This document shows, piece by piece, positions 9,533 to 37,596 of a stretch of 44,151 bases of DNA. The stretch lies in contig JACNKC010000051.1 of assembly GCA_014382245.1 (NCBI GenBank), forward strand, positions 1 to 44,151. Direction: 5' to 3'. Within the stretch, counting starts at the first letter, position 1. Every line of letters begins with the position of its first letter. Both the position numbers and the translations under genes were made by a program. The stretch is from Pseudomonadota bacterium (GTDB lineage Bacteria > Desulfobacterota > Binatia > UBA1149). The notes under the pieces are model-generated. The model worked only from the letters and a program-made list of their open reading frames with translations, did not search any database and was not told where the DNA came from.

Positions 9533-10675
<1,143 letters not shown>

Positions 10676-10777
10676 ACGCCTGGCCGCGGCGGCGCAAGCG
10701 CCTCAGTACAGCGCAGGGCCGCGCAGCAGCGCCTTGTCAAGGTCTCACGGTTTTGTCACCTGGAAGTGCTTCATAAC

Positions 10778-10819: not shown

Positions 10820-11782
10820 TCAATCCAGTTCGCATATACCCCACGAAACTCCCGGGGCTTGGCATTGTAGACTGGTTCCGCACCTCGTATTGCGAATCTT
10901 CGGAGGACCGCAGGACATGATATCAGCGCAGTTTATTCCAGATTGAACAAGCGGATTCGTACAGTTATCAATGATGAAAGAGTCAAACGCCCTGACACGC
11001 ACTGTCGACACTATGCCGATACGACCGTTCTGAGCAACCGTAGTATTTTTGACAGTTAATACCCCGCCCGCCGCACTCGCTCCCTGCCAGCCATTACCTG
11101 TTATCGTTGAGTCCTTTATTTTCAATCGCTGTGTCAAGCTCACTCCGGTCAGAACATTATTGGTAATCGTTGACCGTTGAACCCGCCCCCCATGGGCAGC
11201 TGCTATTCCATTAGACCCGTTGCCCGTAACCGTTGAGTCCTTGACAACAATCCCGCGCGCCAAAGCCAGCGCACCAATATCGCTATTATTTTTAACGGTA
11301 GAGTTTAAAAGCGTCAATTTAATACCAGCCGAGACGCCGATAAAAGTATTTTCGATCGTAACGGAATCAAGGATGGCTCGCCTGGATACCTGGACACCCA
11401 TCATCTCACTACCCGTGATTGTCAGATTCTTGAGTTTTACCCGCCGTGCATCGTAGCTAGCATAAAAGCCGGTAACACTACCCTCGATGGTACCAGGGCC
11501 CGTAACAGTGCACGAGGCAGAGCAGAATACGACCGATTCTGTCCCGGCCGGGTAATCTAGATTGCCGGTCACAGTATAGCCGTTCAGATAAAGCGTCCCA
11601 CCCGCTACCGTCACGGCTGGCCCTTGGTGAGTAGAACAGTCGAGGTCTCCGAGTAACTCCCCTTGCGTCTTCGCCTCTATCACTTGTCCACATTCAGCGA
11701 CAGCAAACCTCTGGGCAGCGCTCGCAACAGGAGTGAGCAGAAGTACCCCAACCAGCACGCTGCAAGTGGTAAACCCCGTCAC
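10820..11782 (-). CDS. Secreted right-handed parallel beta-helix protein
   Basis: A 320-residue exported protein. The start is taken at GTG 11782 because AAAAAGGA lies 8 nt upstream and it gives a clean signal peptide (TTCSVLVGVLLLTPVASAA). A TTG at 11827 would place 15 charged residues before it. The body consists of short beta-helix coils: 'LKNLTITGSEMMGVQVSRRAILDSVTIENTFIGVSAG', 'KDSTVTGNGSNGIAAAHGG', 'QRSTITNNVLTGVSLTQ' and 'KDSTITGNGWQGASAAGG'. It ends in a Cys-rich tail (CADIMSCGPPKIRNTRCGTSLQCQ). Such folds occur in surface adhesins and polysaccharide lyases; no catalytic motif is seen. Base composition is clearly more AT-rich than flanking genes. It follows the 11852-12748 gene by 69 bp on the same strand. 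Confidence 0.85.
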   Translation of the reverse strand: MTGFTTCSVLVGVLLLTPVASAAQRFAVAECGQVIEAKTQGELLGDLDCSTHQGPAVTVAGGTLYLNGYTVTGNLDYPAGTESVVFCSASCTVTGPGTIEGSVTGFYASYDARRVKLKNLTITGSEMMGVQVSRRAILDSVTIENTFIGVSAGIKLTLLNSTVKNNSDIGALALARGIVVKDSTVTGNGSNGIAAAHGGRVQRSTITNNVLTGVSLTQRLKIKDSTITGNGWQGASAAGGVLTVKNTTVAQNGRIGIVSTVRVRAFDSFIIDNCTNPLVQSGINCADIMSCGPPKIRNTRCGTSLQCQAPGVSWGICELD

Positions 11783-11851
11783 TGGTTCATCCTTTTTGGC
11801 ACAGAGGAGCCGAGAGCCAATTAACAACCCCGTATCCGACTGGATCGCGCC

Positions 11852-12748
11852 CTACTGGCATACGCATTCGTTGTTTGTGCAGCCCGGCGAGAACGGAGCA
11901 GGGCAGATCGGCGCGGCGGGGCAGCAGACCGGGTCACTACACGTATTTCCTCCCCATTGGTTCGGATCGAACATAAGACTGGTGTTCTCAACAAGACACG
12001 GAATGGTGTGGGGGTAATTAAGATCGGTGATCTTGTTATCAAAAAACCGTATCTTTTTATCCTGCCCGACCTGGTGGAGACCTGTATTCACAACAGACAT
12101 AGTGTTGCTGGAAACATCTGGACCCCGACCACTCTTGTTGGTGTCGCGACCGGTGATCTTTATGCCACCAATGCTTGACGCTATTTCATTAGCCCGAATG
12201 AAAGACGTACTGTCGGGCATTACAACGTCAACACAGAATGCACCACAGCTCATAAAAGGATTGTTGTCTACTTTCTTTGTGTAATCCCCGGGTTCGGGGT
12301 CTCCCAGAACCCCCGTGGTCGGGGAGTTGATAGACATGGTATGAATCCGCTTCGCGTTGTGGACGGCCACGGCAATGTTGCCAGTGTAGCTCTGAATGAG
12401 GCCGCCGAATACAGTACTGTTAGGCTTAGACGCGTGGACTGCTGTAGCGCAGCCTTCAGGACTCACACACCGAATCCAGTGGTTTCTGAAATCCAGGTTA
12501 GCCCCGTCCTTCAATCTAATGCATACCGGGTCGTCTTTTGTCATCTCCACATTGCCCGTCAGGATAGTATCTGACCCGAACTTACCTCCCGGGCAGCTCG
12601 GACCGGAAATCTCATTCTGAGCGTAAGCACCCGGCGCGACGAGCAAGAGAGCGAAGACTAAGAAGATTCGGAAGACGTTCCAAAACACGGTCGTGTCTCC
12701 GATGCGGAGAACTCCGCCCCGGGACTTGAGAAAAAACATGACACTCAT
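11852..12748 (-). CDS. Secreted beta-helix-like protein with repeat-encoded leader (copy R1)
   Basis: A 298-residue exported protein of unknown function. The ATG at 12748 sits 5 nt after a perfect AAGGAGG. The first 15 residues (MSVMFFLKSRGGVLR) and the whole 5' region lie within direct repeat R1 and are the same as those of the gene at 15044-15874; the rest differs. The signal continues with 'NVFRIFLVFALLLVAPGAYAQ'. The mature part has beta-helix-type turns ('CIRLKDGANLDFRNHWIRCVSPEGCATAV', 'SIGGIKITGRDTNKSGRGPDVSSNTMSVVNTGL'), Cys pairs and a Cys-rich C terminus (CCPAAPICPAPFSPGC). It resembles the 15044 gene loosely in layout ('NCATAV..', 'SGKGP' versus 'SGRGP'). Codon use is lower in GC than the neighbourhood, suggesting acquisition. 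Confidence 0.8.
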   Translation of the reverse strand: MSVMFFLKSRGGVLRIGDTTVFWNVFRIFLVFALLLVAPGAYAQNEISGPSCPGGKFGSDTILTGNVEMTKDDPVCIRLKDGANLDFRNHWIRCVSPEGCATAVHASKPNSTVFGGLIQSYTGNIAVAVHNAKRIHTMSINSPTTGVLGDPEPGDYTKKVDNNPFMSCGAFCVDVVMPDSTSFIRANEIASSIGGIKITGRDTNKSGRGPDVSSNTMSVVNTGLHQVGQDKKIRFFDNKITDLNYPHTIPCLVENTSLMFDPNQWGGNTCSDPVCCPAAPICPAPFSPGCTNNECVCQ

Positions 12749-12814
12749 ACAACCTCCTTCGCCCTGGCGGCGAGAATCAGATGCCTGCAATCCCTTTCAA
12801 ACCATGCCACCGGC

Positions 12815-12844
12815 TTCTAACACGCCCGGGGGGGTGGCTGTCAA
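12815..12844 (-). promoter_or_regulatory. Candidate promoter with C7 tract in the spacer (R1)
   Basis: On the minus strand a perfect TTGACA (12839-12844) is followed by an 18-bp spacer containing C7 (12828-12834) and then TTAGAA (12815-12820), about 67 bp before the ATG. Length change of the C7 run would move the spacer to 17 or 19 bp. Further runs (C8 at 12864-12871, A6, A5 and C5) lie just upstream. The -10 match is weak, so promoter activity is inferred. Confidence 0.45.
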
Positions 12845-12954
12845 GGAATCCAGGCAAAAAAGCCCCCCCCGAAAAACCCCCACTTTTACTGCCTGTTTAT
12901 TTTCACTGAAGCGACGCGCGCGCAGTTTTCGAGCAGGTGCTTGCCTCAGGGCCG

Positions 12955-13102
12955 CTGGCCGCCTTCCAGAACACCCAGTTCAAGCTCGCCGAACTCGACA
13001 CCGAAATCAGCTCGGCACGCGTGGTCGACAAGTGCGGGTAGCAGCGAGGTCATGAAAATCATCATCAGCCGCGCGCTCATGGGCTGAACGCCTGGCCGCG
13101 GC
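12955..13102 (+). pseudogene. Acyl-CoA dehydrogenase 3' remnant (in R1)
   Basis: The part starting GCCGCCTTCCAGAACACC corresponds to 10361-10440 of the intact gene, then jumps to the sequence equivalent to 10623 onward, losing about 180 bp and meeting an early TAG. The last 72 bases, including the stop codon and following spacer, differ from the intact gene at one base (R2 copy). Differences in the first part are mostly at third codon positions, so it came from a separate, once-functional allele or paralogue. Confidence 0.85.
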
Positions 13103-13103
13103 C

Positions 13104-15032
13104 TCAGGGTTTTGTCGCCCTCAGCTGCCTTGATGTCTGTTTGTTAAGCTGCATGCTTGCTTGCCAGCACTGACCGCCGGGTCCGCGCAGCTGGCCCAGC
13201 ACCGGCCCGACAACCGCAGCGACACTGCCGCTTACCAAGTCGGCAGCTTTGACCTTGACACCAGCCTTGCTCAGCGCCCTGCCATTGGCCCGCATTCGTG
13301 CATTCGAGCTACTCGAAGGGCCGCGGGCTTTGTGCGCGGCACGCTTCCACCCCTGCTTCCAGCACTGATCACCCTGGCAGGGGTCTATCGACATCGAAGC
13401 CAGAGACAAGTCGGCGTCGCCCTGATCGTAAAGGCACACGCTGTAAGACCCCAGTCCCCAGCCGGGAAGAATCTCGGCGGGCTCGCTTGCGGGGCCTTCC
13501 GATTTCCAGGCCAATTTGTCTCGCGCTGGACGTGTGCCCAAGCTGACAGACGCCCTCGCCAACGGACAGCAATCGGTCTCGGGCACTGCCCCGCAAACCG
13601 GCGCCGCGGCAGTAAAAGCCTTGCCCACCACTGCCTCGCCGCAGCGATCAAAATCCGTGATCTCGCAACTGAGTTCGCCCGGCCCGTTGTAATCCCAGAC
13701 TGCGACGAATCCCGACCCTGACGAAACCAGCTTCGCAAAGATCGCAGACCCGTCCGCGTAGCCATCGAGCATGAAGTCGCGTCCGAGCAAGCTGCCATCC
13801 GCACCCACTCGCTTGGCCATCAGCGCTGGAGCCTCGCTGGGCAGGCCTTTTCTCCTGACCACGTGCCCATCGGAACTGTTCCAAGCCACCAGCACACTGC
13901 CCACGGTATTGATCGCCAGGCGTGGCCTCATCTGCAAGCCCCTGGTGGCAGAATTAAGTGCCAGCTCGGCGCCCACACGGCTGCTGTCCGCCGCAAAACG
14001 TTGAAAAAAAATGCCCATATCATCGCCAGGACCGTTGCCAGACCAGGCAACCGCGAAGCCGCCGCTTGAGTCCACGGCCAGGTCCAGGCTTCCCCATCCA
14101 CCCTGCGTTCCCTCGCTGAAGCTGTTTACCTGCCACTCGGGTTCCAATGCTGAGCCGTCAGCGCTGAACCTGCGGGCAAAAACGCCGGCCCAGGAACCGT
14201 CCTGCGATACCGAAAGATCACCCCCGGCCGGAGCGCAGCCGGGCGCGAAACTGCCCTGGTGGCAGCCGCTTGTCCACGCCAGGATAAACCCGCCGGCCGG
14301 CAGTGCCCGCACAACAGCGTAGTACTGGTGGCCGTCGGTAAAATCGGTTGGCGAGATCTCGCCGCTCAACGGGGCTCCGGTAGCGTCAAAGCGCCTGAAG
14401 CCGATTGTCATATCGTTGGGATCCGAGCCTCCATCAAGAGTCCTCGTCCATGCCGCGACCAGCGAGCCGTCGGTCAGGCAGGCCAGGTTCGCGGGCCCGA
14501 ACCACGCCTGTTGGCCCGCCAGTCCCTCGTCCAGCCTGAACTCGGAACCCGCCGGCACCCAGTCGCTGTCATACACCTGCGCGTAGACTTCCTGTTCACC
14601 CCCGGGTCCGTGCCCCGTCCACATGGCTGCCCCTCCACCCGAAGCAAAAGCACAAAGACCGTGCAGGGCCGAGCTACCGACCGAAGACATGTTTACCTGC
14701 TGTTGCGACGAGAGGGCAATACCAAGGTCGGACGAAAAAAGGCGCAGCAGAGCGTTATACTGTGGTGTAGGGGTTTCCTGCCCGGTCGTCTCGGTCCAAC
14801 CCACCACGACGTTGCCCACCGCATCGACCACCACCCGCGAGCCAGCCTGCTTCGCTGCCTCAGATTCGTTGAGAACCTGCTCCCAACTGCAGTCCTGGGC
14901 TGGCGCGGGACCAACCGCCATAAAAAAGAAGCAAGCTCCCGCCCCATAAACCACCCCCCACCATGTCCTACCGAAAAAAGGTTTCCTTCCGCCGGCTAAC
15001 CCCAAAAAACAGGTTTTAATATACGCGTGCAT
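13104..15032 (-). CDS. Secreted beta-propeller-like repeat protein
   Basis: A 642-residue exported protein of unknown function. The N terminus has a long signal region (WWGVVYGAGACFFFMAVGPAPAQ). The body carries five or more repeats of the type 'GGFAVAWSGNGPGDDMGIFFQRF...G.E..LNS', seen in many bacterial surface proteins and expected to fold as propeller blades. A Cys-rich linker (CGAVPETDCCPLARASV) leads to a C-terminal domain ending 'VVGPVLGQLRGPGGQCWQAS'. This resembles a tail common in secreted proteins of Binatota/Myxococcota-like genomes (from memory, not searched). It is 11 bp downstream of the 15044-15874 gene on the same strand, so probably cotranscribed. GC content is nearer the genome average than that of its island partners. 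Confidence 0.8.
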   Translation of the reverse strand: MHAYIKTCFLGLAGGRKPFFGRTWWGVVYGAGACFFFMAVGPAPAQDCSWEQVLNESEAAKQAGSRVVVDAVGNVVVGWTETTGQETPTPQYNALLRLFSSDLGIALSSQQQVNMSSVGSSALHGLCAFASGGGAAMWTGHGPGGEQEVYAQVYDSDWVPAGSEFRLDEGLAGQQAWFGPANLACLTDGSLVAAWTRTLDGGSDPNDMTIGFRRFDATGAPLSGEISPTDFTDGHQYYAVVRALPAGGFILAWTSGCHQGSFAPGCAPAGGDLSVSQDGSWAGVFARRFSADGSALEPEWQVNSFSEGTQGGWGSLDLAVDSSGGFAVAWSGNGPGDDMGIFFQRFAADSSRVGAELALNSATRGLQMRPRLAINTVGSVLVAWNSSDGHVVRRKGLPSEAPALMAKRVGADGSLLGRDFMLDGYADGSAIFAKLVSSGSGFVAVWDYNGPGELSCEITDFDRCGEAVVGKAFTAAAPVCGAVPETDCCPLARASVSLGTRPARDKLAWKSEGPASEPAEILPGWGLGSYSVCLYDQGDADLSLASMSIDPCQGDQCWKQGWKRAAHKARGPSSSSNARMRANGRALSKAGVKVKAADLVSGSVAAVVGPVLGQLRGPGGQCWQASMQLNKQTSRQLRATKP

Positions 15033-15043
15033 ATACCCAGGCC

Positions 15044-15874
15044 TCAGTCGTTCTCAAAAGGGGTTGCGGCAGCACATTCGTTTTGGTCTTCGCTACAACA
15101 ATAGTTATCGGTGAAAGTCTTGTTGGTGACCGTCACGTCAATTGAAGTGCTACTTACGTTGCCCTCGCAGATTATGTTGTTCAAGACCCGCAATTTGCTG
15201 CTGTCCTGGGCCCGAATCCCTGTACCGTAGCGCACCAGCACATTACGCCATACCTTTGGTCCCTTACCGCTGCTTGTGCCCGAAACTTCTATGGCAACGG
15301 GATACCCATCCACCAGGTTGCTCCTTATAAACGCAGTATTATTGACCAAGGCAACGTCAATTCCAGTAGCTCCACCGTTTTTGATGATGTTCCGCCAGAC
15401 TTTCTTCACCAACCCAGAGCTACCGGCCACACCAGTGGCACATCCGTCCATCAGCACACCCTTGACCTCGAATACGTTATCAGCGCACACCGTAAACGGT
15501 CCGGTTATACTCCCTTCTTCGAGAACACTGCCCACGCTATCTCCCTCAACTGCCGTGGCGCAATTTCCGTTCGTGCGAGTGCAGCGAATTTCAGCCCCGT
15601 TGAGGTCCGCATCGTATCCGTCCTGCAGTGCGAAACATGGGCTCGTGGCCGAATCAGTGGTGTATACAAAGCCGGAGTACCCGACAAAATCGCCGCCCCC
15701 GGCTTCGTTAATGTAGATGGTACTGGAACAATCAACGCAAGTTATACCGTCTTCGCATTCATATGACGCGTAGGAGTTCTGCAGCGAGCACAACCCAGTG
15801 GCAACTGCAGCGCACCCGAGAACAGCCACGCGGAGAACTCCGCCCCGGGACTTGAGAAAAAACATGACACTCAT
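15044..15874 (-). CDS. Secreted beta-helix-like protein with repeat-encoded leader (copy R2)
   Basis: A 276-residue exported protein. It begins with the same MSVMFFLKSRGGVLR leader, AAGGAGG ribosome site and upstream region as the 11852-12748 gene, because both lie in the 399-bp direct repeat. It then diverges into its own signal core (VAVLGCAAVATGLCSL). The mature protein is Cys-rich with beta-helix-style turns ('CFALQDGYDADLNGAEIRCTRTNGNCATAVEG', 'AFIRSNLVDGYPVAIEVSGTSSGKGPKVWRNVLVRYGTGIRAQDSSKLRVLNNII'). No enzymatic motif is visible. It is more AT-rich than the surrounding metabolic genes. It is first of a two-gene unit with the propeller-like protein. Confidence 0.8.
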   Translation of the reverse strand: MSVMFFLKSRGGVLRVAVLGCAAVATGLCSLQNSYASYECEDGITCVDCSSTIYINEAGGGDFVGYSGFVYTTDSATSPCFALQDGYDADLNGAEIRCTRTNGNCATAVEGDSVGSVLEEGSITGPFTVCADNVFEVKGVLMDGCATGVAGSSGLVKKVWRNIIKNGGATGIDVALVNNTAFIRSNLVDGYPVAIEVSGTSSGKGPKVWRNVLVRYGTGIRAQDSSKLRVLNNIICEGNVSSTSIDVTVTNKTFTDNYCCSEDQNECAAATPFEND

Positions 15875-16228
15875 ACAACCTCCTTCGCCCTGGCGGCGAG
15901 AATCAGATGCCTGCAATCCCTTTCAAACCATGCCACCGGCTTCTAACACGCCCGGGGGGGTGGCTGTCAAGGAATCCAGGCAAAAAAGCCCCCCCCGAAA
16001 AACCCCCACTTTTACTGCCTGTTTATTTTCACTGAAGCGACGCGCGCGCAGTTTTCGAGCAGGTGCTTGCCTCAGGGCCGCTGGCCGCCTTCCAGAACAC
16101 CCAGTTCAAGCTCGCCGAACTCGACACCGAAATCAGCTCGGCACGCGTGGTCGACAAGTGCGGGTAGCAGCGAGGTCATGAAGATCATCATCAGCCGCGC
16201 GCTCATGGGCTGAACGCCTGGCCGCGGC
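15830..16228. repeat. 399-bp direct repeat R2 (leader, promoter, acyl-CoA dehydrogenase remnant)
   Basis: Partner of R1 at 12704-13102. The homology with the intact acyl-CoA dehydrogenase 3' flank continues four bases past this unit, to 16232, then the aldolase gene end begins at 16239. That makes R2 look like the older junction and R1 the product of a later tandem duplication. The gene-free stretch 15875-16238 consists of this repeat plus 10 bp. Confidence 0.93.
15941..15970 (-). promoter_or_regulatory. Candidate promoter with C7 tract in the spacer (R2)
   Basis: Same arrangement as in R1: TTGACA at 15965-15970, 18-bp spacer with C7 at 15954-15960, TTAGAA at 15941-15946. Both copies have the same tract length here. 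Activity is inferred from the motifs only. Confidence 0.45.
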
Positions 16229-16232
16229 GGCG
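16084..16232 (+). pseudogene. Acyl-CoA dehydrogenase 3' remnant (in R2)
   Basis: Same internally deleted fragment as in R1. Bases 16161-16232 match 10623-10694 downstream of the intact gene with one mismatch, including the stop codon and the 'acgcctggccgcggcggcg' spacer. The first part (16084-16160) matches about 10361-10440 with mainly synonymous changes (ctg/ctc, gag/gaa, ttg/ctc, tct/tcg). Confidence 0.85.
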
Positions 16233-16238
16233 GGGGAA

Positions 16239-17210
16239 TCAATCGAGCGCCGAGTCGCCCTCGCCGCTCTGCTCGAGAAAGAAGTCGTAGCACAGGTCGC
16301 GCGCGCCGTTATCGCCGCGCACGCGCATGGCTTCGCGCGGGTGCTGGTTGAGGTGGCCGCTTATGCCGTAGATGTCGTTGAAGCCCCACTCTATCTCTTC
16401 CCGCAGCGGCACCAGTTGCTCCTGTATGGCGCGGTACACCGGGCGCACGTCAAACTTGGGGTTCTTCAGGAAGTTGAGCAGCAGCTCGAGGTTGCAGTTG
16501 CCCGCCCCGCGGCCGATGCCGTTGATGGTGGCGTCGAGCAGGTTGACGCCCTCGATGATGGCCTGCTGGGTATTTGAGAACGCCAGTTGCTGGTTGTTGT
16601 GGGCGTGGAATCCCAGCGGCTTGTCGGGCGCGTGCTCGCGGTACATGGCCAGGTAGGCGCTCACCTGCTCGGAGTAAAACGCTCCGTAGCTGTCAACGAG
16701 GTAAAGGTAGTCGACTTCAGCGGCTTCGTTCACCTGCCCCAGCGCCTCGATGAGGTCGCTCTCGATGGCGGCCGAGCAGGCCATTATGTTTATCGTAGTG
16801 CCGTAGCCGAGATCCTTTGTGCGCCGGACCAGCTCGATGCCCTTGTCGATGTCGGCCACGTAGCAGGCCGTGCGTATCATGTCGACGGGCGACTGGTCAG
16901 CCGGCACCAGCCGGTCGAGGTCAACCCGGCCCACGTCGAACATGACGGCCACGTCGGGCCGGTGTTCGCAATCGCAGGAATCCACCACGCGGCGGATGTC
17001 GTCGTCGTCGCAGAAGTTCCACTTGCCCCACTTCTCGCGCGTGTACTCGTCGCTGACGGCCAGCTTCTTACCCAGCTCGACTATGTCGACGCCCGCTTCA
17101 CAACTGGCGCGGTAGCAACCCTTGACGAAATCGTCGGTGAACTGGTACTGGTTTATCAACCCGCCGTCGCGGATGGTGCAGTCGAGGACCTTTATCTCTT
17201 CGCGGTACAT
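16239..17210 (-). CDS. DRE-TIM (HMG-CoA lyase-like) aldolase
   Basis: Metal-dependent carbon-carbon lyase of the DRE-TIM family, 323 residues. The signature 'LDCTIRDGGLINQYQF' carries the catalytic Arg-Asp pair. The C-terminal beta strand 'GFHAHNNQQLAFSN' supplies the H-x-H metal ligands, and 'INGIGRGAGNCNLELLLNFL' is the usual glycine-rich loop. The sequence is closest in style to 'aldolase catalytic domain' proteins related to 4-hydroxy-2-oxovalerate aldolase; no acyltransferase extension is present. It converges on the secreted-protein island. In the proposed ancestral order it would have faced the acyl-CoA dehydrogenase directly. The substrate is unknown. Confidence 0.88.
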   Translation of the reverse strand: MYREEIKVLDCTIRDGGLINQYQFTDDFVKGCYRASCEAGVDIVELGKKLAVSDEYTREKWGKWNFCDDDDIRRVVDSCDCEHRPDVAVMFDVGRVDLDRLVPADQSPVDMIRTACYVADIDKGIELVRRTKDLGYGTTINIMACSAAIESDLIEALGQVNEAAEVDYLYLVDSYGAFYSEQVSAYLAMYREHAPDKPLGFHAHNNQQLAFSNTQQAIIEGVNLLDATINGIGRGAGNCNLELLLNFLKNPKFDVRPVYRAIQEQLVPLREEIEWGFNDIYGISGHLNQHPREAMRVRGDNGARDLCYDFFLEQSGEGDSALD

Positions 17211-24585: not shown

Positions 24586-24594
24586 CTTAATAAA

Positions 24595-24656
24595 GGGAAG
24601 ACGTACCTTTTCGGGGTTTCAGACCACGTCTCAAACCCCGAAAAGGTAACAGGTCT
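24595..24656. repeat. 62-bp palindromic element, copy A
   Basis: The core arms ACCTTTTCGGGGTTT (24605-24619) and AAACCCCGAAAAGGT (24633-24647) are perfect 15-bp inverted repeats. Inside them AGAC/GTCT adds 4 bp around a CAC loop. Outer ends read GGGAAGACGT and AACAGGTCT. The reverse complement of 37530-37591 matches at 59 of 62 positions. It lies between the PpiC-type gene (start 24585) and the end of the PEP mutase-family gene. Confidence 0.9.
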
Positions 24657-24671
24657 CCTCGCGGCGAAATG

Positions 24672-25547: not shown

Positions 25548-25617
25548 GCGGGGTAGGTTGCACCACTCCCGCCCTTATCGCCACCCCGCAAACACACCCG
25601 CTACCTTCTTCCCCTGT

Positions 25618-26889
25618 TCAGGAAGCGAGTATGCAGAAGGGGTCGGGGCCGAGCACGCTGCCGGTCATAGAATAGCCGCGCGCGCGCGAGCCGCCGCAGA
25701 CGTAGCGATACTCGCATTCACCGCAGGCGCCCTCGAGACGGTCAGCATCGCGCAACTCGATGAGCGCAGGCGACCGGCGGTAGATGTCTTCCAAGGGCTG
25801 CCCGCGCACGTTGCCCAGCAGGGGGTGGGGCAGGAAGCCAGCGGGGTAGACATCGCCGGTGTGACTGACGAAAACAATGCCGTTGCCATCGCGAAAGCCG
25901 AAGCCCATGCGGCGGCCGAGCGCGTTTACCTCGTCGGCCGTCGAACCCTCCTCCAGCCGTCGCTGTATCCAGTAACGCCGGTAGTGCGGAGCCTCCACGG
26001 TGCTCACGTGAAACGGCGCGTCGCGCGAGATCTCGTATACCCAGGCAAACAGCTCCTCCACCTGCTCGGCGCTGGGCACGCCCAGTTCAAGCCCGCGACC
26101 AACGGGTACGAGCAGGAACAAGCTCCAGCGCCTGACCGGTGGCGACTGCTCGTCGGCCAGCAGTCGGAACAGCTCTTCGAGGCGAGGCATGGTCTCGGTG
26201 GTAACGGTGGTGTTGACCTGCACCGCAATGCCAGCCTCGCGCGCCCAAGCGAGCGCGTTCATCGAACAGTCGAAGGTGCCGGGTACCTGCCTGAAACCGT
26301 CGTGACTGGCGGCGTCGGGAGCGTCAATGCTGACACCGAGAGCCGACACGCCCAGCTCGCGCATGCGCAGCACCTGCCCGCGCTCGAGCATCGGCGTGGT
26401 GCTGGGCGTAACGGCCACCGGCACGCGCAGGCCGCGGGCGTATTCTATGAGCTCGAACAGGTCGGGGCGCTTCATCGGGTCTCCACCGGTCAGCACGACC
26501 ATCGAGCCCAGCTCCTTTACCGACCTTAGCAGCGCTCGTCCCTCCTCGGTCGTCAATTCGCGCGGATCGGCATCGGGTTGCGCGTCGGCACGACAGTGCC
26601 GGCAGGCGAGGTCACAAGCCAGCGTGGTCTCCCAGTAAACGTTGCGCGGGGCGCGATCGAAGACATGGCCGGGCCAGGTCTGGCCCACCAGGCGCGTGGC
26701 TACCTGCTCGGGCAGCTCGCCAGGATGCCCGCCGCCCGCAGGATGCCCGCCGCCCGCAGGATGCCCGCCGCCCGCAGGATGCCCGCCGCCCGCAGGATGC
26801 CCGCCGCCCGCAGGATGCCCGCCGCCCGCAGGATGCCCGCCGCCCGCAGGATGCCCGCCGCCGTTACTGCTATTGATACCGCCCTTCAT
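25618..26889 (-). CDS. Radical SAM/SPASM enzyme with N-terminal (GGGHPA)8 repeat
   Basis: A 423-residue radical SAM enzyme resembling TIGR04053 and the NirJ/AhbD haem-modifying group. After MKGGINSSN come eight uninterrupted GGGHP(A) hexapeptides (residues 10-57). The core follows: [4Fe-4S] motif CDLACRHC (Cys92, 96, 99), SAM-binding 'VVLTGGDPMKRPDLF', and a C-terminal SPASM-type Cys set ending 'ACGECEYRYVCGGSRARGY...DPFC'. The ATG at 26889 has AAGGAG about 9 nt upstream, so the repeat is translated. It is divergent from the molybdoenzyme operon across a 298-bp gap. A His every six residues suggests metal or haem binding, or a flexible tether. Target is unknown; a peptide, haem or cofactor modification are all possible. 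Confidence 0.9.
   Translation of the reverse strand: MKGGINSSNGGGHPAGGGHPAGGGHPAGGGHPAGGGHPAGGGHPAGGGHPAGGGHPGELPEQVATRLVGQTWPGHVFDRAPRNVYWETTLACDLACRHCRADAQPDADPRELTTEEGRALLRSVKELGSMVVLTGGDPMKRPDLFELIEYARGLRVPVAVTPSTTPMLERGQVLRMRELGVSALGVSIDAPDAASHDGFRQVPGTFDCSMNALAWAREAGIAVQVNTTVTTETMPRLEELFRLLADEQSPPVRRWSLFLLVPVGRGLELGVPSAEQVEELFAWVYEISRDAPFHVSTVEAPHYRRYWIQRRLEEGSTADEVNALGRRMGFGFRDGNGIVFVSHTGDVYPAGFLPHPLLGNVRGQPLEDIYRRSPALIELRDADRLEGACGECEYRYVCGGSRARGYSMTGSVLGPDPFCILAS
26721..26864 (-). repeat. 18-bp minisatellite, eight units
   Basis: The plus-strand unit CAGGATGCCCGCCGCCCG starts at 26721, 26739, 26757, 26775, 26793, 26811, 26829 and 26847, identical except at the end of the last unit. 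Each unit is six codons of the radical SAM gene, so gain or loss of units keeps frame. No spacers are present, so it is not a CRISPR array. Confidence 0.95.
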
Positions 26890-26907
26890 AACTCTTCACT
26901 CCTTCCT

Positions 26908-26946
26908 GCGATCAACTCGAGCGATCAACTCGAGCAATCAAGTAGC
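26908..26946. promoter_or_regulatory. Tandem 13-bp repeats upstream of the radical SAM gene
   Basis: GCGATCAACTCGA occurs twice head to tail (26908-26920, 26921-26933), followed by a degenerate third copy (GCAATCAAGTAGC). The first lies just before the ribosome binding site of the radical SAM gene, within the divergent region shared with the molybdoenzyme operon. Repeats of this size often bind regulators; that is inferred. Confidence 0.45.
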
Positions 26947-27094
26947 AAACGGGGCGGACGGCGCGACCGTTTCGCAACAACACTCTACCTGCCAGAAAGT
27001 AACGTGCAAGTATCCGCACGACCCGTTACCACTCAGCAACATTGCCACGGCCCGGTCGAGCGGCTAGAAGTATCACTGCCGCCTTAGTTGAACC

Positions 27095-27157
27095 GGGACA
27101 GCCGCCCGGTAGCGCGACCGACGAGAAAACAGCCCGGGTGGCTGCTGTCCGTCGGTC
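27095..27157 (+). promoter_or_regulatory. Possible alternative-hairpin leader of the molybdoenzyme operon
   Basis: Two stems that cannot form together. One pairs GACCGACG (27116-27123) with CGTCGGTC (27150-27157), with an inner ACAGC/GCTGT. The other pairs GGACAGC (27096-27102) with GCTGTCC (27144-27150) plus CCCGG/CCGGG. They lie 30 bp before the start of the first catalytic subunit, whose SD is AAGGACGAGG. Chance is possible in GC-rich DNA. Confidence 0.35.
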
Positions 27158-27187
27158 CTTCAACCGTCCCGTCTTAAGGACGAGGAT

Positions 27188-30076
27188 ATGACAGGCAGGA
27201 AAGGACCGCTGCGTTTCACGCGGCGAGGATTCATTGCAGCCGGCAGCGGCGCCGCGATAGCTCTTGCGCTGTCCAGGCTCGGGCCCTTGTCGTCGGCAAC
27301 GCAAACTGCCGCCCCTACGACCGCCACCGGAAACACTGCCCTCGTATACGGCGACTGGCGCGACGTATACCGCGACCGCTGGAGCTGGGACCGCGTGGTC
27401 AAAAGCTCCCACTTCACCAACTGCTGGTACCAATCGCACTGCGCGTGGAACGTGTACGTGAAAGACGGCGTGGTGTGGCGCGAGGAACAGGTAGCCGACT
27501 ACCCGCAGTCGCGCCCCGACGTACCCGATTTCAACCCCCGCGGCTGCCAGAAAGGCGCGTGCTACAGCGAGCGCATGTACGACCAGGCTCGCGTGACCTA
27601 CCCACTCAAACGCGTCGGCCCGCGCGGTGGCGGTCGCTGGAAACGCGTGGGCTGGGAAGAAGCCCTCACCGACCTCGCCGAGGAGTTCGTCACCATCGCC
27701 ACCGAAGAGGGCAGCAACCGCGTGGTGTGGGACAACGGGCCGCTGTTCACCTTCGGCGCCATGGCCGCGGCCCAGACCCGCTTCGTGGATCTCACGGGCT
27801 GCATAAGCCTCGACATGAACACCGAGATCGGCGACGGCCACCGCGGCGCGGCGGAGACCTTCGGCAAGATCGTCTTCGAGCGCTCGGCCGACGACTACTT
27901 CAACTCCGACCTCATCCTGATCTGGGGATGCAACCCTTTCGCCACGCAGATACCCAACGCACACTTTCTCACCGAGGCCCGCTACAACGGCGCGCGCCTG
28001 GTCACCATCGCACCCGACTACAGCCCCTCCTCGATACACAGCGACGCGTGGCTGCAGGTGCACCCGGGCAGCGACGCGGCCCTCGCGCTGGCCATGTGTC
28101 GCGTGGTCATAGACGAGCAACTCTACGACCGCGCCTTCGTGCGCGAGCAGACCGACCTGCCCATGCTGGTGCGCAGCGACACCGGCCTCCTGCTCAGGCA
28201 GTCAGACCTCCAGCGCGGAGGCGAAGAGGAGATATTCTACCGCTGGGACGAAACCAGCGCAGGCGCAGTGGAGGCCCCGCGCGACAGCCTCGCGCTCGCT
28301 GGCGTAAAGCCCGCGCTCGAGGGCAGCTACCAGGTCGCCACCCTTGGGGGAAACGTCACAGTGCGGCCGGTATTCGAGCTGCTGCGCGAACGCCTGGCCG
28401 ACTACTCACCCGAGCAGGCCGCGCGCATCTGCGGCACGGCGGCCGGCGAGATCAGCCGCCTGGCCCGCGCGGTAGCCCACGCACGCGCCGCCACCAACGT
28501 GACCACCTCTAACTTTGCCAAGTACTACCACGGCAACCTGGTGGAGCGCGCGCAGGCCCTCCTGTTCTCGCTCTGCGGCCACATCGGCAAGAAGGGCGGC
28601 GGCTTCGTGGCCTTCCCGTTTCTCACCAACGACGCCTTCGATCTCTTCGTGCGCACGCGAACCAGCGCCGTCGACACGGCAAAGCTATACGCCGACTTCC
28701 TGCCCCGCAGCACCTGGCTCAAGTGGAAAGGCTACACCGAGGAAATGGTCGCCTACGAGTTCGCGCGCGATGCCTTCCGGCGCGGCCAGGGTTTCGCCTG
28801 CGGCGTGCTGTTCTGGGCCACGCACGGAGGGCTGCTCGAGTACAGCGGCCGCTCGGGTGACTGGGACCCTTATATGAAACGTCCGCTGGGCGACTACCTC
28901 GACGAGTCGCTCAACAAGGGATGGCAACACGTCTGGCCGCCGCGCGACAGCGAGCCTCGCATGCTGTTCAGTTTCGGCTCGAACCTGCTGCGCCGTGTGC
29001 GCGCCTACCCGTTGCTGCTCAAGACGCTGTGGCCCAAGTTGCGTCGCGTGGCCGTGATGGACTGGCGCATGACCTCGACCGGGCAGTGGGCCGACTACGT
29101 GCTGCCGGTATCGGGCTGGTACGAACGCGACGACCACAAGTGGGCAACGCCGCTGTCGCCCTTCCTGCACGCCGGCCGCAAGGCTGTCGAAATAGAAGAA
29201 GCCTGGCACGAGTGGCGAATCTTTCATCACTTCACCCGCATCATAGGCGAGGTCGCCCAGCGCCGCGGGGTGGATCGCTACAGTGACCACCTGGGCCGCG
29301 AGCTTTCACTGGCCAAGCTGCACCGTGAATTCACCTGGGATCATCGCTACGGCGAACGCGACGAGAGCCTGGTGGCCGGCGAGCTGGTGGAACGCTCTAC
29401 CAACCTGGGCGACGCCAAGTGGAAAGACGTGCAGGACAAGGGCTACGTGCGCTTCTCGGCCCCCGGTGGCAGCGCGGTTTCAGTGGGCAACGCTACCGAG
29501 TTTGCCGACAATGATACCATCACCCCGCTCACCGAACACGTGCACGGCAAGATGCCCTACCCGACCACAACCCGTCGCATACAGTTTTACATCGATCACC
29601 CTTTTTACATGGAGCTCGACGAAGCTTTACCGCGACACAAGGACCCGCCCAGGGCAGGCGGCGACTACCCACTGATGCTCACCGGCGGCCACACGAGATG
29701 GAGCATTCACTCGCAGTGGCGAGACGACGCGCTGATGCTGCAACAACAACGCGGCGTGCCCGTGGTGTACATCGGCGTGGAGGACGCCAAGTCGCGGGGG
29801 GTAGCAGACGGCGACGACGTGCTTGTGCGCAACGACCTGGACAGCTTCCGCATACAGGCCAAGGTGTCGCCAGCCGTGCGGCCCGGCCAGCTCATCATTT
29901 ACCACGCCTGGGAGAACTACCAGTTCGCCGGCGGCAAAGGATTCCAGAACCTGATTCCCAGCCCCATCAACCCCGTTGAACTCGCCGGCGGCCAGTATCA
30001 CCTCAGGCCCATGATCATCTGCCTGCAACCGGGACAGTTTGACCGCGACACTCTCGTGGAAGTGGAGAAGACCTGA
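27188..30076 (+). CDS. Type II DMSO-reductase-family molybdoenzyme, catalytic subunit 1
   Basis: Molybdopterin-guanine-dinucleotide enzyme of 962 residues with a Tat signal (TRRGFIAAGSGAAIALALSRLGPL), so periplasmic. The FS0 [4Fe-4S] ligands fit His75, Cys79, Cys85 and Cys120: a His first ligand marks type II enzymes, but C-x5-C is longer than the usual C-x3-C. The likely Mo ligand is Asp216 in 'NTEIGDGHRG', the position used by NarG and ethylbenzene dehydrogenase. 'DLILIWGCNPFATQIPNAHFLTEARYNGARLV' and the C-terminal 'LMLTGGHTRWSIHSQW...IYHAWENYQF' resemble ethylbenzene and steroid C25 dehydrogenases. It probably hydroxylates a hydrocarbon with water or catalyses a related oxygen-atom transfer; specificity is inferred. 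It precedes a second alpha gene by 232 bp, and no separate beta gene follows it directly. Confidence 0.93.
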   Translation: MTGRKGPLRFTRRGFIAAGSGAAIALALSRLGPLSSATQTAAPTTATGNTALVYGDWRDVYRDRWSWDRVVKSSHFTNCWYQSHCAWNVYVKDGVVWREEQVADYPQSRPDVPDFNPRGCQKGACYSERMYDQARVTYPLKRVGPRGGGRWKRVGWEEALTDLAEEFVTIATEEGSNRVVWDNGPLFTFGAMAAAQTRFVDLTGCISLDMNTEIGDGHRGAAETFGKIVFERSADDYFNSDLILIWGCNPFATQIPNAHFLTEARYNGARLVTIAPDYSPSSIHSDAWLQVHPGSDAALALAMCRVVIDEQLYDRAFVREQTDLPMLVRSDTGLLLRQSDLQRGGEEEIFYRWDETSAGAVEAPRDSLALAGVKPALEGSYQVATLGGNVTVRPVFELLRERLADYSPEQAARICGTAAGEISRLARAVAHARAATNVTTSNFAKYYHGNLVERAQALLFSLCGHIGKKGGGFVAFPFLTNDAFDLFVRTRTSAVDTAKLYADFLPRSTWLKWKGYTEEMVAYEFARDAFRRGQGFACGVLFWATHGGLLEYSGRSGDWDPYMKRPLGDYLDESLNKGWQHVWPPRDSEPRMLFSFGSNLLRRVRAYPLLLKTLWPKLRRVAVMDWRMTSTGQWADYVLPVSGWYERDDHKWATPLSPFLHAGRKAVEIEEAWHEWRIFHHFTRIIGEVAQRRGVDRYSDHLGRELSLAKLHREFTWDHRYGERDESLVAGELVERSTNLGDAKWKDVQDKGYVRFSAPGGSAVSVGNATEFADNDTITPLTEHVHGKMPYPTTTRRIQFYIDHPFYMELDEALPRHKDPPRAGGDYPLMLTGGHTRWSIHSQWRDDALMLQQQRGVPVVYIGVEDAKSRGVADGDDVLVRNDLDSFRIQAKVSPAVRPGQLIIYHAWENYQFAGGKGFQNLIPSPINPVELAGGQYHLRPMIICLQPGQFDRDTLVEVEKT

Positions 30077-30117
30077 TTCAGGGCTCTACGTACCCGGCAC
30101 GGCGGCAGCGCCCACGC

Positions 30118-30140
30118 GAAAGCCGGCCGGCAGGCTTTCC
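30118..30140 (+). terminator. Hairpin after catalytic subunit 1
   Basis: GAAAGCC-8 nt-GGCTTTC lies about 40 bp after the stop of the first alpha gene. The loop GGCCGGCA can pair further. No strong T-run follows, so it may be an attenuator or processing site in the 232-bp gap between the two alpha genes rather than a full terminator. Confidence 0.4.
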
Positions 30141-30308
30141 TGTAAGTGCGAAGTGGAAAGTTCTACTACCCGCGCAAGGGCCTGATTTTACTGGCCACTC
30201 TGAGCTGGATGGCAACCGCCGCAGCCTCTGGCAAGGCTCTTGCTTACCGCTTACACCAAGCATTAGGCGTCCTGAAAGGCGGGCCGCCAAAAACAAACGG
30301 GAACGGGT

Positions 30309-33300
30309 ATGAACTCACCGGAACTCTCTCGTCGCGGATTCATCAAGGCATCGGCCGCATCGGCTCTCGCGCTGGGTCTTGCCCGGCTGGGACCGCTGGC
30401 GCCCGGCCCGGCCGGGGCCGCGGCCCTGTCCACCGGCCCGAACTACGAAGGCTGGCGGCAGATGATGGCCGGCAAGTGGACCTGGGACAACACGGCCAAG
30501 GTCACCCACTGCGTTGACTGCTACCCCGGGCAGTGCTCGTGGACCGCCTACGTGAAAGACGGCATGGTCATACGGGAGGAGCAGACCGGCCACTACCCCC
30601 AGCTCAACCCGGACCTGCCCGACATGAACCCGCGGGGCTGCCAGAAGGGCGCGTCGTTCAGCGACCTCATGTACGCCGACGAACGGCTGCGCTACCCGCT
30701 CGTCCGGGTGGGCAAGCGCGGCGGTGGCCGCTGGAAACGCGCCAGCTGGAACGAGGCCCTGGGCAAGGTGGCCGACGCAATGATCACCGCGCAGCAGGAG
30801 TCGGGTCCCGAGTCCTGCGTGATGGAGCAGGGCCCGGGCAACATAGGCATATTCCAGGCCAACTCGGTGGGCCGCTTTGCCACCGCGTGGGGCATGACGA
30901 CGCTCGACGTCGATGGGCTGATCAACGACTTCAACATCGGCCAGTACATAACCTTCGGCAAGTTCCACCAGGCGAGCTCGGTGGACGACTGGTTCAACGC
31001 CGAGGTCGTCCTCATCTGGCACAAGAACCCCATCTATACGCGCATCCCGTCGTATCACTTCATAAGCGAGGCGCGCTACCGCGGGGCTACCGTGGTGACC
31101 ATAGCGCCGGACGCCAGCCCGTCCACCATGCACGCGGACATGTACGTGCCCGTTGATTTCGGGTCCGACGCGGCCCTGGCCCTGGGCATGGCGCAGGTGA
31201 TGATGTCAGAAGGCCTGGTCAACGAGCGCTTCGTAAAGGAGCAGACCGATCTCGCGCTGCTGGTGCGCGACGACAACGGGCGTTTCCTTCGGGCCAGCGA
31301 GCTCGAGGGCGGCGACTCGCGCGACGACCAGTTCTACTTTCTCGACCCCGACAGCGGGCAACCGGCAGCGGCAGCGCTGGACACCCTCGAACTGGGCGAG
31401 CTGGACCCGGCACTGGACGCGCGAGCCACGGTCACCCTGCACGACGGTAGCAGGATCGCTGTGCGCACGGTGTATTCGCTGCTGCGCGAGCAGGTCAACC
31501 GCGACTACACGCCAGAGCAGGCTTCAAAGAAATGCGGCACCTCGGCCGAGACCATACGTCGACTGGCGCGCATGATCGCAACCCGCCGAAGCATGATCAT
31601 CATGGGTTGGAACTCGGCCAAGTACTACCACGGGGACCTCATCGAACGGGCCCAGTCGCTGGTGCTGGCGCTGAGCGGCAACTGGGGCACGAGCGGCACC
31701 GGCAACGCTGGCTGGAACCAGTCGGGCGACGCCAAGAACCTGCTGTTCGGCCGCCGCAACCTGGACGACTCGGAGTTCGACCGCATAGTATCCGGACACG
31801 AAGACGTCATCCGCTTGCTCAAGAAAAAAGACCCGACGATCACCGACGAGATGGCGGCCATAGAATTCGAGAGAATCATCGCGCCACTGACCTCGCACGC
31901 GCCGCCGGTTTTCTACTGGTACCACCACGCGGGCTACCGCGAGGTATGGAACAACCCCGACTGGGGTGACCCCGGCACGAAAAGGTCCTTCGACGAGTAC
32001 TACGACGAGGCCATGGGCAAGGGTTGGTGGGACGGGCTGGTCAAGCCCGCGCCCGAACAGACTCCCCGCGTGCTTATCGGGGTTGCCGGCAGCACGCTCC
32101 GACGGACCCGCGGAGGGCTCAAACAACTTCTCAGCCACACCTGGCCCCGGCTGGACATGGTAGTGAGCATCGACCCGCGCATGAGCACCACCTGCATGTA
32201 CTCGGACGTAGTGCTGCCACCGGCCTGGTTCTACGAGCGCGAGGACTTCCGCTTCCATTCGCCCTCGGTGACCTACAACACCTTTACCGACCGGGCCGTG
32301 GAGCCACTGGGCAACACGATCACCGAGTGGGAAATAATGGGCCGCCTGTCTCAAAAAATCGTCGAGCGAGGGCGCAGCCGTGGCGTGAAGAAATTCGAGC
32401 GCAAGCAAGCACTCAACCGTGACTTCATCGAGCTGCTTCCCGCGCCCATGCGCGCCGCCTACCGGCTGCTCGGGGGCACGATGTTCGAGCAAGCCCTTTC
32501 CTGGGTGCTGCCGGGCATGGCCAGCCGCCTGGGCGTGGAGCGCAGCTACCGCGACGCGGAAAAACAGTACTCCAAGGGTCAACCCATAAACCGCACTGGC
32601 TACCTGGCCACCTTCCAGACCTGGATGAGCGACCAGGCGCGGCTGGGCCTTGTCCCGGCCGACGCCGACCTCGGCAAGTATCGCCGTGAAGGTTTCCAGC
32701 GCATGACCGGCCTGGACCCGATGGACCCGGTGTCACTCAACACCTCGTGCGACATAGAGCCGGATAAACCCATCGTGGCGCTGCAGTGGCACGTGCGCGA
32801 CAAGGTGCCTTACCCCACGATAGTGCGTCGAGCGCAGTTCTACATTGACCACGAGTGGTTCATCGAGGCCGGCGAAGCGCTACCCGTGCACAAGGACAAC
32901 CCGAAGATGGGCGGCGACCACCCGTTCCGCCTCACCAGCGGTCACATGCGGTGGAGCGTCCACTCCATCTGGGTGGTCAACAAGCTCATCCAGCGCACCC
33001 ACCGGGGCCGGCCGGGCATGTTCATCAACCCGAAAGACGCCTCGGCCAAGGGTCTCGTAGACGGTGACATGGTGGAGGTGTTCAACGACTTCAGTTCGTT
33101 CAAGGTGCACATCATTACCTCGAGTTCGGTGCGACCCGGGCAGTTGGTCATCTACCACGCCTGGGAGCCATACCAGTTTCCCGGCTGGAAGAGCTACGAC
33201 GTGGCCATTCCCGGCATGGTCAAGTACCTGCACCTTGCGGGCGGCTACGGGCAGCTGCGCTACTGGCGGTGGAACTGGCAACCGGTGCAGTCCGACCGCG

Positions 33301-33347
33301 CGGTGACCGTTGACTTGAAAAAAACCGACCCGGGGAGGCACGCTTGA
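30309..33347 (+). CDS. Type II DMSO-reductase-family molybdoenzyme, catalytic subunit 2
   Basis: Second catalytic subunit, 1012 residues, with its own Tat signal (SRRGFIKASAASALALGLARLGPL). FS0 ligands fit His67, Cys71, Cys76 and Cys111 (C-x4-C). The Mo-ligand Asp is Asp207 in 'GLINDFNIGQYITFGKF', aligned to Asp216 of subunit 1. 'VVLIWHKNPIYTRIPSYHFISEARYRG' and 'HLAGGYGQLRYWRWNW' recall steroid C25 dehydrogenase and ethylbenzene dehydrogenase. Residues about 690-800 hold an insertion ('LPAPMRAAYRLLGGTMFEQALSWVLPGMASRL') not seen in subunit 1. Its TGA overlaps the TTG start of the cytochrome b gene, so this subunit is directly coupled to the rest of the complex. The two alphas are similar throughout but clearly diverged, so it is an old duplication. 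Confidence 0.93.
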   Translation: MNSPELSRRGFIKASAASALALGLARLGPLAPGPAGAAALSTGPNYEGWRQMMAGKWTWDNTAKVTHCVDCYPGQCSWTAYVKDGMVIREEQTGHYPQLNPDLPDMNPRGCQKGASFSDLMYADERLRYPLVRVGKRGGGRWKRASWNEALGKVADAMITAQQESGPESCVMEQGPGNIGIFQANSVGRFATAWGMTTLDVDGLINDFNIGQYITFGKFHQASSVDDWFNAEVVLIWHKNPIYTRIPSYHFISEARYRGATVVTIAPDASPSTMHADMYVPVDFGSDAALALGMAQVMMSEGLVNERFVKEQTDLALLVRDDNGRFLRASELEGGDSRDDQFYFLDPDSGQPAAAALDTLELGELDPALDARATVTLHDGSRIAVRTVYSLLREQVNRDYTPEQASKKCGTSAETIRRLARMIATRRSMIIMGWNSAKYYHGDLIERAQSLVLALSGNWGTSGTGNAGWNQSGDAKNLLFGRRNLDDSEFDRIVSGHEDVIRLLKKKDPTITDEMAAIEFERIIAPLTSHAPPVFYWYHHAGYREVWNNPDWGDPGTKRSFDEYYDEAMGKGWWDGLVKPAPEQTPRVLIGVAGSTLRRTRGGLKQLLSHTWPRLDMVVSIDPRMSTTCMYSDVVLPPAWFYEREDFRFHSPSVTYNTFTDRAVEPLGNTITEWEIMGRLSQKIVERGRSRGVKKFERKQALNRDFIELLPAPMRAAYRLLGGTMFEQALSWVLPGMASRLGVERSYRDAEKQYSKGQPINRTGYLATFQTWMSDQARLGLVPADADLGKYRREGFQRMTGLDPMDPVSLNTSCDIEPDKPIVALQWHVRDKVPYPTIVRRAQFYIDHEWFIEAGEALPVHKDNPKMGGDHPFRLTSGHMRWSVHSIWVVNKLIQRTHRGRPGMFINPKDASAKGLVDGDMVEVFNDFSSFKVHIITSSSVRPGQLVIYHAWEPYQFPGWKSYDVAIPGMVKYLHLAGGYGQLRYWRWNWQPVQSDRAVTVDLKKTDPGRHA

Positions 33348-33946
33348 GCCCCGTCGCTGATACAGGGCGAGCCCCGGGCCCGGTTTCCGCCGGCGCTCGA
33401 CCGGCAACAAGACGACCATCCTGGCGCAGGCTTCACATTGCCTACGCAGTGGTGGTGCTGGTACTGGTGGCGACCGGCCTGCCCATACAGTTTCCCGACT
33501 TGAGGGCCGGCCTGGTGGGCGGCTACGGGCGCACCATAGCAAGCATCCACGAGTGGAGCGGCGTGGTCATGCTGGCCGTGCCCATTCTGGCACTGGCCTG
33601 GGCGCCGTCGTGGGCCACTACTTCTCTCCGGCTGCGCGCGCGGCGACGCGCCAACTTGGGCCTGCACGCCATCAACCTGTGGTTCACCCTGCTGTCAGGG
33701 GTGATGCTCGTTGTTACCGGCTTCATCATGTGGATGCCGGGCACGCTGCCGCTACCACTCATCGACACGTCGGCGCAACTTCACGCAGCGGCGAGCTGGG
33801 GGCTGTACGTCATGCTTCCCGTTCACCTGCTGGTGACGCGACAGCGCGTCTGGGCAGCAACACGCGAATGGACAATGGCCGCCGCGCGGCTGGCCCGGGC
33901 AGCGGGCGGCACCGCTGAACAAACGGAGGACCAGGCATGCTGGTAG
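33344..33946 (+). CDS. Cytochrome b (FdnI/NarI/b561-like) membrane subunit
   Basis: A 200-residue integral membrane protein with four predicted helices (IAYAVVVLVLVATGLPIQF; GVVMLAVPILALAW; LWFTLLSGVMLVVTGFIMW; SWGLYVMLPVHLLVT). Candidate haem ligands are His in 'RRLHIAYA', 'ASIHEWSG', 'LGLHAINLW', 'AQLHAAAS' and 'LPVHLLV'. The TTG start is supported by GGGGAGG 5-7 nt upstream and by the TTGA overlap with the alpha-2 stop. Such subunits pass electrons between a periplasmic molybdoenzyme and the quinone pool. Ethylbenzene and steroid C25 dehydrogenases lack one, so this complex may be wired directly to the membrane. Confidence 0.87.
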   Translation: MSPVADTGRAPGPVSAGARPATRRPSWRRLHIAYAVVVLVLVATGLPIQFPDLRAGLVGGYGRTIASIHEWSGVVMLAVPILALAWAPSWATTSLRLRARRRANLGLHAINLWFTLLSGVMLVVTGFIMWMPGTLPLPLIDTSAQLHAAASWGLYVMLPVHLLVTRQRVWAATREWTMAAARLARAAGGTAEQTEDQACW

Positions 33947-34578
33947 TAAAACCTGTCAAGGCAAAGAGCAAGGCACTGCTCGACCCGTCGGGGTCGGTGT
34001 GGAGTTCGATAGCGGCGTCTTCGCTATCACTCAAGACAACTCCCGCGGGGACGCAACCTACCAGCTACACCAAGGTGGCCGGCAAGCAGCGCGGCGAAGC
34101 AGCTGTAACGAGCGCTTCGATGCGACTGTGCCACGACGGCCAACGCATCTACGTGCACCTGGAATGGAAAGACGAAAACGAAGACCTGGCCACCGATGGC
34201 AACGGCTTTCCCGACGCCGCGGCCGTGCTGCTGCCGCTTGGCAACGACGCTCCAATAAACCAGATGGGCAGCGAGCAGCAGGCTGTCAACGCGTGGCAGT
34301 GGAGGGCCGGGGATGAACAGGGGCGCTCGGTGGTGGCCCGCGGCGTAGGCACCACCGAACCCACCCCCGACCCTGTAGAAGTAGCGGCCGCGCGCGCGGG
34401 CAACCGCTGGCGCGTGGTCATCTCGCGCTCGCTGGCGGGTGCCGGTTCCGATTCGGTTGCGCTGGCCACCGGCGGCGACTCGCGCGTGGGCGTGGCCATA
34501 TGGGAAGGAAGCGTGGGCGAACGCGGGGGCTTCAAGGCCTTCACCGAAAACTGGACCGACATAAGGCTGGCCGAGTGA
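33937..34578 (+). CDS. Ethylbenzene-dehydrogenase-type gamma subunit (haem b)
   Basis: A 213-residue homologue of the EbdC/SerC/ClrC haem b domain. The pattern 'RLCHDGQRIYVHLEWKDENED...GFPDAAAVLLPLG', 'NAWQWRAGDEQG' and 'VGVAIWEGSVGERGGFKAFTENWTDIRL' is diagnostic. Met110 (INQMGSEQ) and Lys200 (GFKAF) are 90 residues apart, matching the spacing of the Met/Lys haem ligands of EbdC. No signal peptide is visible, so export would depend on hitch-hiking with a Tat-exported alpha subunit. The start overlaps the cytochrome b stop by 10 bp and has GGAGG 7 nt upstream. Confidence 0.9.
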   Translation: MLVVKPVKAKSKALLDPSGSVWSSIAASSLSLKTTPAGTQPTSYTKVAGKQRGEAAVTSASMRLCHDGQRIYVHLEWKDENEDLATDGNGFPDAAAVLLPLGNDAPINQMGSEQQAVNAWQWRAGDEQGRSVVARGVGTTEPTPDPVEVAAARAGNRWRVVISRSLAGAGSDSVALATGGDSRVGVAIWEGSVGERGGFKAFTENWTDIRLAE

Positions 34579-34601
34579 AAGCGGCGCGGAGGTAAACTGA
34601 A

Positions 34602-35654: not shown

Positions 35655-35704
35655 AGGGGCCGCGATAACGGGGCTCGTTTGAGCCGAGCGGAGAGAAAAC
35701 AGGC

Positions 35705-36418: not shown

Positions 36419-36468
36419 GGAGTATCCCCCTTCTATAACTGCTGTTGAAGGTGTAGCCTGCCGCCACC

Positions 36469-37509: not shown

Positions 37510-37529
37510 AAAGGCCGCTGCCTGAAAGT

Positions 37530-37591
37530 AGACCTACTACCTTTTCGGGGTTTGAGACGTGGTCTTAAACCCCGAAAAGGTACGTCTTCCC
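37530..37591. repeat. 62-bp palindromic element, copy B (reverse orientation)
   Basis: Reverse complement of copy A with three differences. The arms ACCTTTTCGGGGTTT and AAACCCCGAAAAGGT give a stem of about 20 bp. It sits between the convergent F420-type and thiolase genes, where it could also act as a bidirectional terminator, though neither side has a T-run. Confidence 0.9.
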
Positions 37592-37596
37592 CTTCT

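Follow-up and report, generated by a model that had tools for sequence, protein, structure and literature searches.

Two genes in a 44,151-nucleotide stretch of DNA (the window) from a bacterium of the order UBA1149 begin with the same 15 codons behind the same upstream sequence, which raises the question of how one leader came to stand in front of two different genes. UBP10 corresponds to the Binatota, and UBA1149 is an order within this group (PMC8262859). An earlier note had described the locus as two 399-bp direct repeats, 3,126 bp apart and different at one base, and repeat comparison bears this out. R1 (12704-13102) and R2 (15830-16228) are identical at 398 of 399 positions, with A at 13057 versus G at 16183 as the sole mismatch, and a match of 99.7% over this length excludes chance. 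According to a genome-wide search, R1 and R2 are the only full copies of the repeat in the 2.94-Mb draft genome. The features of the locus are as follows.

9536-10675, plus strand: intact acyl-CoA dehydrogenase gene (ACAD), left neighbor (Pfam Acyl-CoA_dh_1/M/N)
10622-10694, plus strand: ACAD 3' end and post-stop bases, direct repeat of 16160-16232 (72 of 73 positions) and 13034-13102
10820-11827, minus strand: Y1, module A, 335 amino acids, right-handed beta-helix (Pfam Beta_helix, E=1e-11)
11852-12748, minus strand: X1, module A, 298 amino acids, N-terminal hydrophobic stretch, first 15 codons from the repeat
12704-12949, minus strand: R1 leader half with the first 15 codons, the SD sequence AAGGAGG, TTGACA, and homopolymer tracts
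12950-13102, plus strand: R1 pseudo-ACAD half, 78 bp plus 6 bp plus 69 bp of the ACAD 3' end, with 191 bp deleted between
13104-15032, minus strand: Y2, module B, 642 amino acids, no Pfam or NCBIfam match
15044-15874, minus strand: X2, module B, 276 amino acids, N-terminal hydrophobic stretch, Beta_helix/NosD below the Pfam cut-off
15830-16075, minus strand: R2 leader half, identical to the R1 leader half
16076-16228, plus strand: R2 pseudo-ACAD half, its 3' part adjoining native sequence on the HMGL side
16239-17210, minus strand: HMGL-like gene, right neighbor (Pfam HMGL-like)

Read on the minus strand, the order is R2, X2, Y2, R1, X1, Y1. The modular layout proposed earlier is thus real, with the succession of repeat, X, and Y present twice. 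The proteins behind the leader had been described as otherwise different; X1 and X2 are paralogs with 30 to 35% identity, and Y2 is unrelated to Y1. Only Y1 matched the beta-helix family above the Pfam threshold, X2 being sub-threshold and X1 and Y2 giving no Pfam match. The structure model of X2 is all-beta at low confidence (pLDDT 52; best PDB match, E 0.2), and X2 had no match in the phage collection or among the viral contigs. Judged by their hydrophobic N termini, and for Y1 also by its family, the insert proteins are probably secreted, in agreement with the earlier proposal, and their site of action is probably the cell envelope or beyond it.

About 246 bp of the repeat constitute the leader. 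On the minus strand of each copy, AAGGAGG precedes an ATG and the stretch encoding MSVMFFLKSRGGVLR, which reads in frame into the downstream gene; the perfect AAGGAGG, the 15 codons, and the sharing of one leader by two different genes were all described correctly before. The candidate promoter stood in part: TTGACA is present, but a sigma-70 consensus scan of the leader found no -10 element paired with it, which leaves a candidate promoter. The remaining 153 bp, 38% of the repeat, are a remnant of ACAD, and with this share and no -10 element found, the description as a dedicated leader/promoter element is not supported. Further copies behind other genes, for which the earlier note had suggested a search, were found neither in the same genome, where the leader half has no additional match, nor among 57 additional class genomes, which contained no copy of the full unit or of the leader half. 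The leader pattern was without a match among viral contigs, and Rfam gave no match. Matches of the ACAD-derived half examined across 58 genomes of the class are ACAD genes, and the one match in the plasmid collection is an ACAD gene of Azoarcus.

The flanking genes place both repeats within a larger insertion. In the sister species G001 and G002 (the relatives search returned no other genome of the genus), ACAD (94 to 95% identical orthologs) and the HMGL-like gene are convergent direct neighbors separated by a short gap; the repeats are therefore part of a lineage-specific insert. Collinearity with the sister species extends up to about 10690-10702 and resumes at 16160, giving a net insert of 5,538 bp. 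Its left edge lies just past 10622-10694, and on each side stands a copy of the ACAD 3' end, both in direct orientation (10622-10694 and 16160-16232). The composition of the insert is foreign relative to its flanks: G+C is 57.2% versus 64.9%, and GC3 is 52 to 69% for the X and Y genes versus 83 to 87% for ACAD and HMGL. With an empty site in relatives, atypical composition, and flanking direct repeats, the insert is a lineage-specific genomic islet. No integrase or other mobility gene was detected by Pfam and NCBIfam among its large ORFs, X1, Y1, X2, and Y2, and the insert yielded neither an invertase nor any silent copy.

Judging from the alignments, the broken ACAD sequence in the repeat derives from a gene of the type of the intact ACAD. 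The inner 78-bp piece aligns with 10353-10430 at 88% identity, differing at 9 of 78 positions from the native ACAD gene and at 6 of 78 from that of G001, and the outer piece, comprising the last 69 to 73 bp, aligns with 10622-10694 at 97 to 99% identity (1 or 2 differences from native ACAD in 69 positions). Read in the ACAD frame, the pseudo-ACAD halves reach a stop after the deletion. In these comparisons, which are short at 78 bp and 69 bp, the mosaic of ACAD pieces fits recombination with a related allele.

The same genome holds three further X-Y pairs, at the loci C58, C105, and C124. One genome of an uncultured phylum thus contains five such pairs at four loci, and at three of these, C58 and C105 among them, both sister species have an empty site. 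Of 148 class genomes, 8 encode X-family proteins, and neither sister species does; a two-row X alignment found no relative in the genome contig collection. Relatives of Y1 are present at C58 and C124, a Y1-like gene follows X in G114, which belongs to another family of the class, and a weak relative of Y2 (24% over 363 columns) follows the X gene of C105. The C124 pair occupies L197 6630-9600; both sister species are collinear only up to 6630, and past the pair, near the contig end, there is a gene for an IS5-family transposase. An unrelated 160-bp repeat in direct orientation, which itself contains an inverted repeat, encloses the C105 pair (94%; L070 7894-8052 and 11029-11189), in the order repeat, X, Y, repeat, and for C58 no flanking repeat was found. 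Flanking repeats therefore exist at two of the four loci, and they are made of target-gene sequence only at the ACAD-HMGL locus.

Some observations lie beside this subject. A 74% relative of the 160-bp repeat is located at C55:20746-20854, and the C105 insert carries a gene for an AraC-type regulator (L070 6909-7661) upstream of its X-Y pair. Elsewhere in the window, palindromic repeats of about 92% identity lie in opposite orientation at 24589-24659 and 37527-37597, and of the stretch between them, approximately 25588-36447 is without a counterpart in G002. Related palindromes at L198 1432-1497 and L070 13825-13897 identify them as a dispersed palindromic repeat family. An 18-bp tandem repeat at 26721-26862, encoding repeated GGGHPA, marks the 5' end of an ORF (25618-26889, minus strand) with a radical-SAM-like CxxxCxxC motif.

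Concerning the origin of the locus, we favor, at roughly even confidence, an accessory islet that was acquired from outside and that recombination at a duplicated target both installed and enlarged, one leader becoming fused in frame to a second gene. The repeat then looks like a scar left by recombination. Incoming DNA carrying a diverged, internally deleted ACAD 3' fragment would have recombined with the chromosomal ACAD 3' end, and Campbell-like integration by a single crossover would have left target sequence flanking the islet on either side. At the 399-bp repeat, the second module may then have joined, most simply as a 3,126-bp unit integrating by recombination between repeat copies. In this leader capture, X1 would have lost its own start region and gained in frame the start codon, ribosome site, and 15 codons of X2. 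On X2 the leader forms a continuous signal-like N terminus, whereas on X1, which is 47% identical to the C58 X protein, it produces an extra-long N-region compared with that protein. Hence, X1 appears to be the recipient of the X2 leader, which is probably native to X2. The sites at ACAD-HMGL, C58, and C105, empty in both sister species, count in favor of the islet, as do its foreign composition, the pair at C124, and the repeat enclosing the C105 pair. Against this origin counts that no intermediate, such as a circle or a strain with a single module, is seen, that no donor genome with the leader was found among the 57 other class genomes, that the C58 pair has no flanking repeat, and that mere copying of the repeat would result in an identical arrangement. 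The sister lineage could in principle have lost the islet, though both sisters share the empty state at all three sites. As a possible signature of the mechanism, the 9-base sequence CCCTGAGGC, which the end of Y2 shares with the junction of pseudo-ACAD and leader, was given no weight, since 172 of 2,000 random stretches of the insert had 8-mers in common with the junction region.

Copying without integration could have taken the form of a leader conversion, which we regard as unlikely but of appreciable weight. With the modules already in tandem, gene conversion or template switching would have copied R2 to give R1, replacing the X1 start and carrying the pseudo-ACAD piece along. This would explain why the repeat copies are 99.7% identical when X1 and X2 share about 30 to 35%, and why the junction lies in frame at the X1 5' end, and it would make a second insertion event unnecessary. 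However, the repeat runs 153 bp into ACAD-derived sequence, away from homologous genes, so that the conversion would need a nonhomologous end there. An intact ACAD gene with a copy of its 3' end at the far edge would be expected from the relic of a site-specific element that integrated into the ACAD 3' end, supplied a replacement end, left the displaced end at the far edge, and lost its integrase. Such a relic seems quite improbable, considering that no mobility gene was seen among the large ORFs, that the displaced copy lacks 191 bp internally and occurs twice, and that the other X-Y inserts occupy unrelated sites with no common core. Just as improbable is an assembly artifact, in which one module lies behind the repeat and the other belongs elsewhere, to another strain or to a circle. 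The assembly is nonetheless the main caveat: it is a 129-contig draft MAG, the 353-bp identical stretch in the repeat exceeds a short read, and an assembler would arrive at the same graph from a chromosome with one module and an excised 3,126-bp circle. Yet a single base, 46 bp from the ACAD-side flanks, distinguishes the copies, and both are well inside the 44-kb contig, the repeat not having been left as a contig end.

The repeats are so arranged that, as the earlier note claimed, homologous recombination could excise the 3,126-bp unit or multiply it. They could serve as substrates for RecA-type deletion, with loss of module B, or for amplification, and recombination across the outer ACAD copies would excise the islet and leave ACAD intact. 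The earlier note went further, envisaging a modular cassette in which leader recombination exchanges the gene behind the leader and switches the surface protein made. An in-frame leader ahead of two different genes, the homopolymer tracts, and the direct orientation agree with this idea. It nevertheless appears very improbable: the leader is already on both X genes, so that exchange between the repeats, which yields deletion or amplification only, removes a module and offers no choice between silent and expressed copies. Moreover, no leaderless or silent copy with leader sequence was found in the same genome or in the 57 class genomes, and the 38% share of ACAD remnant in the repeat and the lack of a -10 match also count against it. 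That the units of repeat, X, and Y are mobile, integrase-free cassettes, circulating between strains as small circles or fragments, we consider rather improbable. Such cassettes would enter by homologous recombination at the piece of the target locus that they carry, and the arrays behind ACAD would be strain specific. If modules really move, this would be a simple integrase-free route to shuffle secreted proteins.

Returning to the islet reading, several known systems invite comparison. Strain-specific genomic islets may be bordered by direct repeats of their target gene's 3' end, prophage e14 in E. coli icd being one example. Similarly, the ACAD-HMGL insert adjoins an intact conserved gene, the 3' end of this gene is duplicated at both edges, and the copy at the far edge has diverged. 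In contrast to e14, this insert shows no integrase among its large ORFs, its far copy is internally deleted, present twice, and fused to a leader, and other islets of the same Binatota genome use unrelated sites. The homologs of the sap (S-layer) locus of Campylobacter fetus have common 5' ends. The likeness lies in different genes for surface or secreted proteins having an identical upstream and N-terminal coding segment able to recombine. In C. fetus, recombination exchanges sap homologs at a conserved promoter region (PMC3887049). Whereas C. fetus transcribes predominantly one gene and exchanges the homologs, each of the Binatota X genes already has the complete leader, in direct orientation, and silent copies were not found; with the leader on both genes and no other copy in the genome, the locus does not have a single expression site with silent donors. 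Tandem duplication or amplification with promoter capture is a known route to new expression signals. The present locus differs from that route in that neither downstream gene pair is a duplicate of the other, but as there, a duplicated upstream region stands before another gene and direct repeats are left behind. It is tempting to regard the locus as a worked case in which recombination at duplicated target sequence would have fused the leader of one gene in frame to another.
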